The notes beneath the pieces were generated by a model. The model was not told where the DNA came from. It ran no database searches and saw only the letters and a program-made list of their open reading frames with translations. Both the position numbers and the translations under genes were made by a program. From NCBI RefSeq assembly GCF_016428585.1, contig NZ_JAELVR010000008.1:1-64000 (forward strand): a DNA stretch of 64,000 bases. Direction: 5' to 3'. Shown here piece by piece: positions 2,890-7,078 of the stretch (its first letter is position 1; every line of letters starts with the position of its first letter). The DNA comes from Sedimentitalea arenosa. Lineage in GTDB: Bacteria > Pseudomonadota > Alphaproteobacteria > Rhodobacterales > Rhodobacteraceae.

Positions 2890-3861
2890 ATGCCCTCTCC
2901 CCAGATCGACACCTTCGCCACTCAGCTTCGTCAGAGGCGTGCCAATTATGGAACCCTTGAAGAGACCGCGGCGGCTTGCCGGAGCGAGATGGAAGCGATG
3001 TTTGGCGTCTTCAGTCCTGAGATGGTTGCGAACCTCTTGGCGGCGGTGGAGATCGTCCGAGCCGAGATTCAGGACGTGGAGATTCTCCGGCGCCACTCGA
3101 TCGTCGATGCACCGGAAGACTGGTATCGCGGACCCGGCGCAAACAGCCGACATTGGACCGCACTGCACGAATATCTCAAGACCAAGGGCTGGAACCCAGA
3201 CACGATCAGCTCGCTGGACCGTGCATCTACAGAAGTGGTCTCGTTGCTGGGCAATCCAGGCAAGGACAAGTTCGCCTGCCGCGGACTCGTAGTCGGCTAT
3301 GTGCAATCCGGCAAGACCGCCAACATGACTGCGGTCATGGCAAAGGCCGTCGATGCCGGTTACAATATGATCATCGTCCTCGGTGGCGTGACGAACAAAC
3401 TGCGCAAGCAGACCCAGGATCGGTTCGAGAAGGATGTGCTTCGTCACCGCACTCTCTGGCAACTCTACACCACGAGTGACCCGGCCGGCGATTTCGTCCA
3501 GCCCGCGAACGGTGGATTCGTCATGCCTGCGGAAGGTCATGCTCAGCTGATCGTGATGAAGAAAGAGGGAAGTCGCCTCAAGCAACTGCGGCGCACGATT
3601 GCCCGCACGCCCGCTGTGGTCCTGCGGGAGCTCAAGGTGCTCCTGATCGACGATGAATGCGATCAGGCCTCGGTGAATTCGGCGCGCGGCGAGTTCGACA
3701 TGACGCGGATCAACGCAGAGATACGGCAAGTCCTGGCTGCGCTGCCGGCTGTCACTTACGTCGGTTACACCGCGACCCCCTTCGCAAACGTCTTCATTAA
3801 CCCCTATGCTCCTTTCAACCCTCACAACGATCTGCGCTCATCCTGTGGCGAGAATCTTTGA
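2890..3861 (+). pseudogene. Z1-domain (SF2 helicase-like) defence protein, truncated after the ATPase motifs
   Basis: The 323-residue frame starts at an ATG preceded by AAGG. It matches the N-terminal third of Z1-domain proteins, which are usually roughly 900 residues. A Walker A loop G-Y-V-Q-S-G-K-T-A-N lies at 136-145, a DDE Walker B in L-L-I-D-D-E-C-D-Q-A-S at 252-262, and motif III Y-T-A-T-P-F-A-N at 293-300. Similarity stops just after N-P-H-N-D-L (about residue 315, position 3832); the last eight residues are unrelated and the rest of the gene is absent. Z1 proteins are known from restriction-modification-like operons with MORC/GHKL ATPases and nucleases, but no such partner is present. 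The fragment is therefore probably a dead remnant of a defence operon, although its promoter side and ATPase motifs are intact. Confidence 0.8.
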
Positions 3862-4074: not shown

Positions 4075-6555
4075 TCATCCGCACTTGGAATGACCACAAC
4101 TGGCGCAGGTCATGCAGCCCTCGACCATCCGCATGTCGTATTGGCCGCAGCTCGGGCAGGCCGGGCCGCGGGCGGGGCCTGCGTTGGCGACTTGCGCATG
4201 GGGGTCGGATTTCAGGCCCATGCCTTCGCCTTCGAGAAAACCTATGGCGACCATGTGGCGTTCGATGACGCCACCGATCGCGGCCAGGATCGAGGGGATG
4301 TATTTGCCCTGCACCCAGGCGCCGCCGCGCGGGTCGAAGACGGCCTTCAGTTCCTCGACCACGAAGGACACGTCGCCGCCGCGCCGGAACACAGCGCTGA
4401 TCATCCGGGTCAGTGCCACGGTCCAGGCGAAATGCTCCATGTTCTTGGAGTTGATGAAAACCTCGAACGGGCGGCGGTGGCCATTGATGACGATGTCGTT
4501 GATGGTGATGTAGAGCGCATGTTCGCTGTCGGGCCATTTGACCTTGTAGGTGTTGCCTTCCAACGCCTGCGGCCGGTCGAGCGGCTCGGACATGTAGATT
4601 ACGTCGCCGTGGGGCGTGAGGGGTTCTGCGTCGGATTTTGCGACAATTTCCGGAGAGTTTTTCCCGAACGCCAGCCACTCCTTGCTGACACCAATATGGC
4701 TTGAAACGGCTTCTGCTACACGCAGGGTAATTTCTTTCTTACCTGTCTCGATTTCGCTGACGTAGGTTTTGCTGAAACCGGCCCTTTCTCCAAGATCAGC
4801 GAGCGTCAGTCCTGCTTGATTGCGGGCTTCGCGCATGCGTTGACCTGCGTTCTTTTGGTCCGCCGCCACACTCAACACACTCCCGGTCACCTCGTTCGGC
4901 CGGTAGGTCGTGCAGCCCTTGCAGCCGGTATCCCACGCCTGAAGATAGACATCCTTGAAGTCGTCAAAGGATATGTCCTCGGGACAATTGATGGTTTTGG
5001 ATATGGACGAATCCACCCACTTCTGGGCGGCCGCCTGCATCTTGACATGCTCGGACGGCGAGAGAGTCTGGGCGTTGACGAAGTAATCCGGCAGCTCCGC
5101 GTCACCGAAGCGGTCGCGCCACATCTGTACCGCGTAGTCGACCACTTCCTCCTCGGTGCGGCTGCCGTCCTTCTGCAGAACCTTGCGCGTGTAAGCATAG
5201 GCAAAGACCGGCTCGATGCCCGAACTGACATTGCCCGCATAGAGGCTGATCGTCCCGGTTGGCGCGATGCTGGTCAGAAGCGCGTTGCGGATCCCGTGTT
5301 CGCGGATCGCGTCCCGCACGTCCTCGTCCATGCCGCGCATGGTGCCGCTGTCGAGGAACTTCTCGGCATCAAAGAGCGCAAAGGCGCCTTTCTCCTTTGC
5401 CAATTGCACCGACGCCAGGTAGGCGGCGCGGGCGATCGCGTGCAACCAGTCCTCGGTCTGACGCGCCGCCTCGTCAGTTCCGTAGCGCAAGCCCATCATC
5501 AGGAGCGCGTCGGCAAGTCCGGTGACGCCAAGGCCGATGCGGCGCTTGGCCTGTGCTTCCGCGGCCTGTTCGGGCAGCGGGAATTTCGAGGCGTCGACCA
5601 CGTTGTCCATCATCCGCACCGCGACGGCGACGAGCTCGGCCAGGGCTGTGCTGTCGAGCTGCGCCTCCTTGCCAAAGGGGTCGCTGACCAGACGCGCGAG
5701 GTTGATCGAGCCGAGCAGGCAAGCGCCGTAGGGTGGCAGGGGCTGTTCGCCGCAGGGGTTGGTCGCCGCGATGGTCTCGCAATAATTGAGGTTGTTGGCC
5801 GCGTTGATCCGGTCGATGAAGATCACGCCCGGTTCGGCGTAGTCATAGGTCGCCTTCATCATGCGATTCCAGAGATCGCGCGCCTGCACCGTGTGATAGA
5901 CCTTCCCACCGAACTCCAGGTCCCAGGGCGCATCTCGCTTGACCGCGTCCATGAAGGCGTCGGTCACCAGGACAGACAGGTTGAACATGCGCAGGCGGGC
6001 CGGGTCGGCCTTGGCAGCGATGAACGCCTCGATGTCCGGGTGGTCGCACCGCATCGTCGCCATCATGGCGCCGCGCCGCGACCCGGCGGACATGATGGTG
6101 CGGCACATGGCATCCCAGACGTCCATGAAGGAGAGTGGGCCGGACGCATCCGCCGCGACGCCGCTGACCGCCGCGCCCTTGGGCCGGATGGTGCTGAAAT
6201 CATAGCCGATGCCGCCACCCTGCTGCATCGTCAGCGCGGCCTCTTTCAGCATTTCGAAGATGCCGCCCATGCTGTCGGGAATCGTACCCATCACGAAGCA
6301 GTTGAACAGGGTCACCTGCCGCGCAGTGCCGGCCCCGGCGGTGATGCGCCCGGCCGGCAGGAACCTGAAATCCTCGAGCGCCGCGTAGAAGCGTTCTTCC
6401 CACAGGTCGGGGTCCTGTTCGACGCGCGCCAAATCACGGGCGATGCGCCGCCAGGTATCCTCGACGCTCTGGTCCTTTGGCGTTCCCGAGGCATCCTTGA
6501 AACGATACTTCATGTCCCAGATCTGTTCGGCGATCGGGGCGGCAAAACGGGTCAT
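4075..6555 (-). CDS. nrdJ: Adenosylcobalamin-dependent (class II) ribonucleotide reductase with an inserted HTH domain
   Basis: The enzyme reduces ribonucleotides to deoxyribonucleotides using a cobalamin-derived thiyl radical. The 826-residue protein (start M-T-R-F-A-A-P-I) has the barrel cysteine in L-F-N-C-F at residue 86, the active-site N-P-C-G-E at 266-270, Cys279 in G-A-C-L-L-G-S-I-N, and the A-P-T-G-T-I-S phosphate-binding turn near 431-437. It ends in a cysteine-rich tail (C-P-S-C-G, C-M-T-C-A-S-C-G and a final C-G-H-S-K-C-G) that shuttles electrons. Class II enzymes of this bacterial family are about 750 residues. The excess is a complete XRE-type HTH domain at residues about 568-642 in the linker before the conserved G-D-V-I-Y-M-S-E-P-L-D-R-P block. 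The insert is in frame and of lower G+C. The gene is divergent from the DUF1489 gene. An upstream Met at 6771 would run across the promoter region and is rejected. Confidence 0.93.
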   Translation of the reverse strand: MTRFAAPIAEQIWDMKYRFKDASGTPKDQSVEDTWRRIARDLARVEQDPDLWEERFYAALEDFRFLPAGRITAGAGTARQVTLFNCFVMGTIPDSMGGIFEMLKEAALTMQQGGGIGYDFSTIRPKGAAVSGVAADASGPLSFMDVWDAMCRTIMSAGSRRGAMMATMRCDHPDIEAFIAAKADPARLRMFNLSVLVTDAFMDAVKRDAPWDLEFGGKVYHTVQARDLWNRMMKATYDYAEPGVIFIDRINAANNLNYCETIAATNPCGEQPLPPYGACLLGSINLARLVSDPFGKEAQLDSTALAELVAVAVRMMDNVVDASKFPLPEQAAEAQAKRRIGLGVTGLADALLMMGLRYGTDEAARQTEDWLHAIARAAYLASVQLAKEKGAFALFDAEKFLDSGTMRGMDEDVRDAIREHGIRNALLTSIAPTGTISLYAGNVSSGIEPVFAYAYTRKVLQKDGSRTEEEVVDYAVQMWRDRFGDAELPDYFVNAQTLSPSEHVKMQAAAQKWVDSSISKTINCPEDISFDDFKDVYLQAWDTGCKGCTTYRPNEVTGSVLSVAADQKNAGQRMREARNQAGLTLADLGERAGFSKTYVSEIETGKKEITLRVAEAVSSHIGVSKEWLAFGKNSPEIVAKSDAEPLTPHGDVIYMSEPLDRPQALEGNTYKVKWPDSEHALYITINDIVINGHRRPFEVFINSKNMEHFAWTVALTRMISAVFRRGGDVSFVVEELKAVFDPRGGAWVQGKYIPSILAAIGGVIERHMVAIGFLEGEGMGLKSDPHAQVANAGPARGPACPSCGQYDMRMVEGCMTCASCGHSKCG
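4630..4854 (-). other. In-frame XRE-family HTH insertion inside nrdJ
   Basis: This segment encodes residues about 568-642 of the reductase. It contains a canonical five-helix XRE fold: R-M-R-E-A-R-N-Q-A-G-L-T-L-A-D-L-G, then the recognition region F-S-K-T-Y-V-S-E-I-E-T-G-K-K-E-I, then L-R-V-A-E-A-V and a closing E-W-L-A-F-G-K of the type seen in phage-repressor-like proteins. Local G+C is about 52%, against clearly higher values on both sides. No stop codon or frameshift is present, so the full-length fusion should be translated. Confidence 0.8.
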
Positions 6556-6646
6556 GGTCCGAATCCTTTGGCTGGCAGGCATCCACAATAGCTTGAAGCC
6601 GGGGCCGATTCCACTACCATATACCGTGTGGCTTGGGGGCGACTCT
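6556..6646. promoter_or_regulatory. Divergent promoter region nrdJ / DUF1489
   Basis: This 91-base gap lies between the two divergent starts. The stretch CCACTACCATATACCGTGTG at 6611-6630 has an AT-rich centre flanked by CAC and GTG, loosely like one NrdR box, but the fit is partial and a second box is not evident. No confident -35/-10 pair was identified. Confidence 0.3.
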
Positions 6647-7078
6647 GTGGATAAGACGACCAATCTCATCAAACTTTCCGTCGGCACCGAAACCGTCGAG
6701 GCGCTGGCGGCGTGGCAGGCGAGCCGGGCTGCGAAAGGCAAGGACGGCCTGCCCCGCCACGTCACGCGCATGTGGCCGAAACGGGCGGACGAGATCGTGA
6801 ATGGCGGGTCGATCTACTGGGTCATCAAGGGCCTTGTGCAATGCCGCCAGCGGGTGCTCCGGCTGGACGAGGTGATCGGGGCGGATGGTGTCCGGCGCTG
6901 CGCCATCGTGCTCGACCCGGAGCTGCACCGCACGCAAACGGTGCTTAAGCGGCCGTTCCAGGGCTGGCGCTACCTGCCGGTCGCCGACAGCCCGCGCGAC
7001 CTGCCAAAGGGCCGTCTGAACGAGGACCCGCTTCCCACCGAACTGAACCGCGCGCTGGCGGAAATCGGCGTATTGTAG
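6647..7078 (+). CDS. DUF1489 family protein
   Basis: This 143-residue soluble protein has a GTG start giving (M)D-K-T-T-N-L-I-K-L-S-V-G-T-E-T-V-E-A-L, the characteristic DUF1489 beginning. Further family blocks are the H-V-T-R-M-W-P-K-R core near residues 36-44, G-G-S-I-Y-W-V-I-K-G near 51-60, and the end region D-L-P-K-G-R-L-N-E-D-P-L-P-T-E-L. Length fits the family (about 140). Function is unknown; the family is widespread in Alphaproteobacteria. The GTG at 6647 is preferred because upstream starts lengthen the protein beyond the conserved N-terminus and run into the nrdJ promoter. Confidence 0.85.
   Translation: MDKTTNLIKLSVGTETVEALAAWQASRAAKGKDGLPRHVTRMWPKRADEIVNGGSIYWVIKGLVQCRQRVLRLDEVIGADGVRRCAIVLDPELHRTQTVLKRPFQGWRYLPVADSPRDLPKGRLNEDPLPTELNRALAEIGVL

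Follow-up and report, generated by a model that had tools for sequence, protein, structure and literature searches.

What is a domain of DNA-binding type doing inside an enzyme of DNA-precursor synthesis, and does it stay there? The question is raised by the nrdJ gene on contig NZ_JAELVR010000008.1 of Sedimentitalea arenosa (assembly GCF_016428585.1). The whole stretch analyzed, here called the window, comprises positions 1 to 64,000 of the forward strand (64,000 nucleotides). The gene (4075..6555, minus strand, ATG at 6555) encodes an adenosylcobalamin-dependent (class II) ribonucleotide reductase of 826 residues with an XRE-type helix-turn-helix (HTH) domain in the linker behind its catalytic barrel. 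Comparisons within the Rhodobacteraceae revealed that some NrdJ proteins have nothing at this spot and others an XRE-like domain, of which there are many, very different from one another. Within genera these domains have been gained, lost, and replaced, while the enzyme and, in the genus of the window, mostly the promoter have stayed the same. That turnover is observed; its function is what we infer. The reading that we favor, with a little less than even confidence, is that the NrdJ linker offers one constant docking spot to XRE HTH recognition cassettes that can replace one another, a replacement probably driven by conflict with mobile DNA.

A preliminary description of this locus, made from the letters of the DNA, held that the linker contains a complete XRE HTH, and proposed a structure prediction to see whether it folds independently; both points were borne out, the second in predicted models. 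Pfam HTH_3 (PF01381) matched residues 574-628 of NrdJ (E 9.9e-13, 48.4 bits, or 52.9 bits with the linker alone; cut-off 23), between Ribonuc_red_lgC (85-551) and TSCPD (670-768). In an AlphaFold2 model of the whole protein, residues 570-630 (4666..4848, minus strand) formed five helices with block means of 80-89 in the predicted local distance difference test (pLDDT), flanked by low-confidence stretches at 552-567 and 633-666. Only the HTH part of this model was used because its mean pLDDT was 63. When the domain was folded alone, with the 58 other inserts as the alignment, 57 of 97 residues reached a pLDDT of 90. The predicted five-helix fold resembles solved repressors, the best match being the P22 c2 repressor on operator DNA (3jxb; template modeling score by target 0.90, root-mean-square deviation 1.5, 26% identity). 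The third helix of the models (residues 596-604; 4744..4770, minus strand) is the putative recognition helix, by analogy with the XRE fold.

Comparison with L162, an insert-free member of the genus, placed the borders of the cassette at approximately residues 566-634 (~70 residues; 4654..4860, minus strand). The limits of the gene had been given correctly, and the insert, first placed at 4630-4854, had to be shifted. The expectation that the protein would be of usual length without it holds, as the NrdJ proteins L027-L031 have 756-766 residues, and so does that of a lower G+C content: G+C at third codon positions (GC3) is about 0.53 in the insert versus 0.85 in the core. Two other identities were considered for the insert and rejected. 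A phage CI repressor would have a regulator domain such as S24 beside the HTH, but all Pfam matches of the window NrdJ were to families of reductase, TSCPD, or HTH type. Nor is it an intein, as no Hint or splicing family of Pfam matched NrdJ and the insert is only ~70 residues long.

The distribution of the insert was analyzed in two sets of genomes. A search of 198 Rhodobacteraceae genomes (197 genera by tally) found at least 25 NrdJ proteins, the window's included, that matched over residues 1-825/826, and the insert was at the same place in 25 of 25. Four further genomes with a shorter match (G009, G116, G118, and G119) also carry an insert, giving at least 29 of 198. The second set comprises the best 80 of 563 loci from a scan of named genomes; because the query was the HTH linker, this set is biased towards inserts. 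Linkers were read in 109 of 110 loci and were either 33-54 or 99-156 residues long, apart from two cut at 160 by the script. In most, the linker would be short but for the insert, which is bordered by VTGSVLSV..EEK on one side and PEVV..DAEP..PHGDV on the other, with some variants of these ends (such as GDVIYMSE alone). After removal of duplicates, 57 of 95 distinct NrdJ proteins in this insert-biased sample had an insert. From the tree of enzyme cores, L108 was dropped (no linker read) and L065 and L070 were left out (short cores); the latter two are counted among the 59 inserts of the HTH_3 and phrog scans, not among the 57 used for the tree, identity, and Mantel comparisons. L082, which has an abnormally long branch, was kept as insert-free.

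A less biased draw was made from genomes G000-G100, consisting of 12 full-length matches, three insert-free loci (L027, L029, and L030), and 60 partial matches, of which 59 were insert-free and one (G009) had an HTH followed by a frame change. This draw covers 75 of the 101 genomes, several of the other 26 having a small NrdJ, and 13 of its 75 NrdJ proteins had an insert. In the G009 gene (L294; G009:C3:468570-469438), the frame change follows the XRE insert in a G+C-rich run and is either a sequencing error or a real break. To look for the insert outside the family, a profile of the linker with its HTH (A1) was run over 385 genomes of the class, five of them from the family and the window's own included. 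A whole match was seen, among the matches listed, only in the window's genome; the other NrdJ proteins listed matched the profile in pieces.

At the shared site, the inserts themselves are very different. Their median pairwise identity is 27% (57 inserts, 1596 pairs), and their similarity is uncorrelated with the identity of the cores (Mantel test, Spearman coefficient -0.020, a value equaled or exceeded in 311 of 500 permutations). Even where the cores are at least 91.5% identical, seven of seven insert pairs are only 25-31% identical, no more alike than random pairs; one of these pairs, L048/L056, falls in the same broad single-linkage insert group. In Rhodosalinus, the 5' core DNA of L015 and L037 is 93.5% identical and the flanks are near-identical up to sharp borders, and between those borders the inserts are 25% identical. 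The five species of the window's genus present four inserts of 22-33% mutual identity and one empty linker (for two species, the insert sequences compared were those of the same inserts in L039 and L040). On the core tree, presence and absence of the insert required 24 changes, 11 of them being forced by starred branches. Replacement at this fixed site is independent of the descent of the enzyme. The preliminary description had reasoned that the same HTH in most close relatives would make the insert an old family feature and not a novelty; in fact, the HTH at this site differs between close relatives or is lacking, and the insert is neither unique to the window nor one feature conserved across the family.

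These many independent assemblies, of isolates and of metagenome-assembled genomes, with an in-frame XRE-like insert at the same spot leave a misassembly or annotation artefact, which the low GC3 of the insert could have suggested, with practically no probability. One of them is L032, whose contig appears to be that of L119 in G119: at the same place, this assembly of another genome has an HTH 57-62% identical to that of the window, and the misassembly envisaged at the outset is accordingly unlikely.

HTH_3 was matched at E 0.01 by 54 of the 59 inserts, and the phage regulator families phrog_8 and phrog_4 by 52 and 51 of 59, respectively. Among the five inserts without an HTH_3 match, L062 passed HTH_26, L074 matched HTH_19 only (at 0.07), L068 had no Pfam match despite a sequence that looks XRE-like by eye, and two more were without identification. 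The host inserts read are XRE-like, with the fold largely kept, and it is likely because of this that selection keeps a recognition property of the domain, whether for DNA or for a partner. In five inserts from different genera (L067, L068, L069, L070, and L294), otherwise different HTHs are followed by a similar proline/glycine-rich tail (like GQPPTAPxGGGFTPTRGxGQP). One genome has two different HTHs consecutively in the NrdJ linker (L358; G118:C21:6000-10500, a frame of 943 residues), one 41% identical to the L044 insert and the other 69% identical to the L018 insert; Pfam returned a single HTH_3 stretch on this linker, at 20.2 bits and under the cut-off. Such a tandem is the expected appearance of a new cassette added beside an old one, and replacement could pass through such a state.

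It could instead be that the linker accepts any folded domain and that short, common XRE genes come and go in it without a function, as the preliminary description allowed in suggesting a tolerated passenger in a permissive linker. That the linker is permissive stands: NrdJ proteins on two viral contigs (L240 and L255) have long linker stretches (~160 residues) that are not XRE-like by eye, without a Pfam match there in L255. Empty alleles are also numerous (38/95 and 59/60 in the two samples), some inserts are acidic or score weakly, one genome has the frame change just past its HTH, and the window's genome encodes a second B12-dependent reductase (1222 residues; L364:659-4327, G000:C1; NF005736 2253 bits, cut-off 1737), to which a frame of 1247-1290 residues in four other species of the genus is similar. 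A module that is kept nevertheless looks more likely than a plain passenger, given the XRE-like character and the largely preserved fold of the inserts read in hosts. The ratio of nonsynonymous to synonymous substitution rates (dN/dS) also speaks against it, as do, for some inserts, their nearest relatives (both below). We regard the passenger explanation as unlikely, at roughly one chance in four.

dN/dS was run at a 55% identity threshold, was estimable in 13 of 30 pairs, and lay in all of these between 0.09 and 0.31. The estimates came mostly from subtype T3 (L014, L018, L022, L023, and L106), in which nine of ten pairs gave values in that range and the tenth was saturated, with synonymous divergence near that of the core. 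Codon comparisons thus indicate purifying selection on T3. This subtype looks to be a long resident of nrdJ, although its members do not form a single clade on the core tree: insert and core both have a GC3 of 0.81, and the subtype has no close standalone relative in the 198 genomes, where its five best non-self matches are NrdJ inserts (69-80%) and the next best is at 37%. The other 52 inserts have a GC3 of 0.58, versus 0.84 in the core and 0.80 in 30 standalone XRE domains from five genomes, and the averages of the other named insert groups are 0.53-0.63. Weak codon selection on regulators is not an easy cause of this low GC3, because standalone XRE domains are at 0.80. The simplest reading of the composition is that the inserts outside T3 are probably recent arrivals from a pool of lower G+C, although no such source pool was found among the genomes, viral contigs, and phage and plasmid records compared.

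The nearest relatives of five inserts differed in kind. For the T2 insert (L020), the six best non-self matches in the 198 genomes were all NrdJ inserts (65-34%), ahead of any standalone XRE domain. T5 (L044) had two NrdJ inserts first (57 and 56%) and then a standalone XRE frame of G050 (117 residues, 53% identical to the L044 insert), which is the nearest donor type. For the T1 insert of the window, one NrdJ insert (59%) stood out and the remainder were mixed with standalone XRE domains, and for T4 (L015) the two kinds were intermixed at 41-50% (both in 149 genomes). Other NrdJ inserts were thus nearer than any standalone XRE domain by a wide margin for two of the five inserts queried. Part of the cassette pool appears to be NrdJ-associated and part open to capture. 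Two more specific origins were rejected. Recent capture from the phages and plasmids sampled is one, as there was no close relative there of the HTHs tried. The other is that the insert was carried in with a phage nrdJ: no XRE insert was seen in six phage NrdJ proteins or in the readable linkers of 58 viral loci, five of which gave no linker and several of which were only partly delimited. A wider version of the docking-spot reading, for which we would claim about one chance in three, is a family-wide pool of mobile XRE cassettes targeting the nrdJ linker, with old lineages circulating between genera under frequency-dependent selection, the reductase acting as the carrier of a recognition module that is rapidly exchanged and directed against phages or other mobile DNA, and T3 having been domesticated.

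Self-regulation through the region 6556-6646 was a function first suggested for the domain: NrdJ would bind its own promoter via the HTH and repress nrdJ. The complete HTH and the short divergent intergenic region are in keeping with this. A scan with an NrdR-box consensus placed two NrdR-box-like sites in the window promoter, one proximal (6583..6598, minus strand) and one distal (6611..6631, minus strand), 31-33 bp apart, and NrdR is encoded in the same genome, both of which speak against self-regulation. With that consensus, and with kinship ignored, upstream sites above the shuffled 95% level were found in 21 of 46 genes with an insert versus 23 of 32 without (Fisher p 0.036), a difference that would fit a partial takeover of NrdR control where an insert is present. 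Upstream palindromes were very slightly stronger with an insert (4.5, shuffled 4.06) than without (3.84, shuffled 4.05), again with kinship ignored, but the best palindrome of the window promoter was not above the shuffled mean. The accessible text of PMC9110341 describes two NrdR boxes about three helix turns apart.

The promoters of the genus argue against self-regulation. Those of L002, L003, L161, and L162 are 77-81% identical, despite three different inserts or none, and that of the fifth member, L160, is 58-61% identical to the other four. In four of five genus members, then, the aligned promoters do not change with the insert, an operator upstream that changes with the HTH was not found, and NrdR-box-like sites occur both with and without an insert. 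Self-regulation is not supported by these comparisons, and we consider it very improbable.

How, then, might exchangeable HTHs on a reductase act? According to PMC9669993 (section 2.4), almost every class II reductase whose C-terminus is this long is a dimer, and a dimer would carry two HTHs on flexible tethers. Paired in this way, the HTHs could bind DNA elsewhere than at the nrdJ promoter, at a site resembling an operator; an enzyme under NrdR control would, for example, double as a DNA binder in the manner of a phage repressor. Conflict with phages or other mobile DNA could account for how often the specificity module is replaced.

Several observations weigh against such a role. Sequence-specific DNA binding by the inserts is putative and no DNA target was identified. 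Among 20 inserts that were rescanned, mostly weak ones, 12 were below the HTH_3 gathering cut-off and eight above. Mean net charge is a little lower in the inserts than in 30 standalone XRE domains (0.9 vs 2.0, p 0.097), and T3 is acidic, with a net charge of -2 to -7 over 58 residues, and may not bind DNA. The dN/dS values are based on 58 codons and were saturated in 16 of 20 pairs outside T3. The insert is absent from 62 of the 75 NrdJ proteins of the less biased draw, and its presence is somewhat clustered on the tree (24 changes vs a shuffled mean of 29.9; six of 500 shuffles as low). Phage and plasmid records, queried with the HTHs of the window and L056, contained no close standalone donor (best 31-45%), nor did viral contigs, where L068 and L015 had no match and the window HTH reached 34-39%. 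The window NrdJ is not necessarily the only reductase of its host and may be non-essential, because of the second B12-dependent enzyme.

The conserved, seemingly long-resident acidic T3 in particular would suit an HTH that serves protein-protein contact, either in dimer geometry or in evasion of phage factors that bind the reductase, with DNA binding irrelevant. XRE domains also bind proteins, and complexes of Stl with dUTPase and of SinR with SinI were among the structures that matched the window HTH. Evasion would also be in keeping with rapid replacement. Most other inserts, however, are neutral to positive in charge over the domain, and no partner is known. Recognition of a partner seems to us to have perhaps one chance in six, and the docking of interchangeable recognition cassettes remains our preferred explanation.

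The window NrdJ scored 595 bits against TIGR02504 (NCBIfam, NrdJ_Z type; cut-off 400), which places it in class II. Its frame is intact, with no stops. The barrel (Pfam PF02867, residues 85-551; 4903..6303, minus strand) is rich in residues invariant among 30 NrdJ proteins, including C86, C268, and E270, which we take to be catalytic. The TSCPD (IscU-like) domain (PF12637, residues 670-768; 4252..4548, minus strand) is followed by a C-terminal cysteine-rich tail of zinc-finger type (4078..4158, minus strand) in which cysteines 800, 803, 814, 817, 820, and 825 are invariant in 30 relatives. The protein presumably performs B12-dependent nucleotide reduction, with an activity presumably unchanged by the insert.

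The gene has a protein of family DUF1489 as its divergent neighbor (6647-7078, plus strand). Just downstream lies an open reading frame with a helicase-type match under the cut-off (ResIII, 19.8 bits; 2890-3861, plus strand), and a phage-type integrase is encoded close to the contig start (383-1489, minus strand). Judged from this gene content, a mobile island possibly adjoins nrdJ; no tRNA was found in the window.

To judge by the open-access literature, a DNA-precursor enzyme in which the domain of DNA-recognition type at one spot is exchanged from one sister species to another is undescribed. It would link nucleotide metabolism with DNA recognition, and raises the question of what selects such turnover. 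The 57 different HTHs that nature has placed on one scaffold could be tested as a series, and the annotation of NrdJ in public genomes should not assume one fixed architecture. No report of an HTH in NrdJ was found in the titles and abstract beginnings of the open-access literature, a scope outside which most subscription papers fall. No HTH or DNA-binding terms were found in the main text of PMC9669993 or in the accessible text of PMC5704485.

With Z-type class II NrdJ (TIGR02504), the window protein shares the barrel, the TSCPD domain, the cysteine-rich tail, and the NrdR-box-like sites upstream. The C-terminal modules described in the main text of PMC9669993 (IscU-like and zinc-finger) include no HTH, whereas the linker of the window protein carries a variable XRE domain. 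In phage replication proteins, closely related genomes can have unrelated HTH or other domains in one protein, which the accessible text of PMC10684548 ascribes to recombination. Those proteins belong to phages, and in the reductase among them the exchanged domain is C-terminal, whereas here it is an internal HTH of a host enzyme that varies across a bacterial family. The five-helix HTH fold is shared with phage CI-type repressors and XRE regulators (P22 c2, 434, SinR, C.AhdI, and HigA); unlike in these, the HTH is here internal to an enzyme, and the Pfam matches include neither S24 nor any other regulator domain. In the HsdS subunit of type I restriction systems, target-recognition domains are shuffled on a conserved scaffold. 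The likeness to NrdJ lies in the conserved scaffold with exchangeable recognition modules, and the difference is that the scaffold is here a metabolic enzyme.

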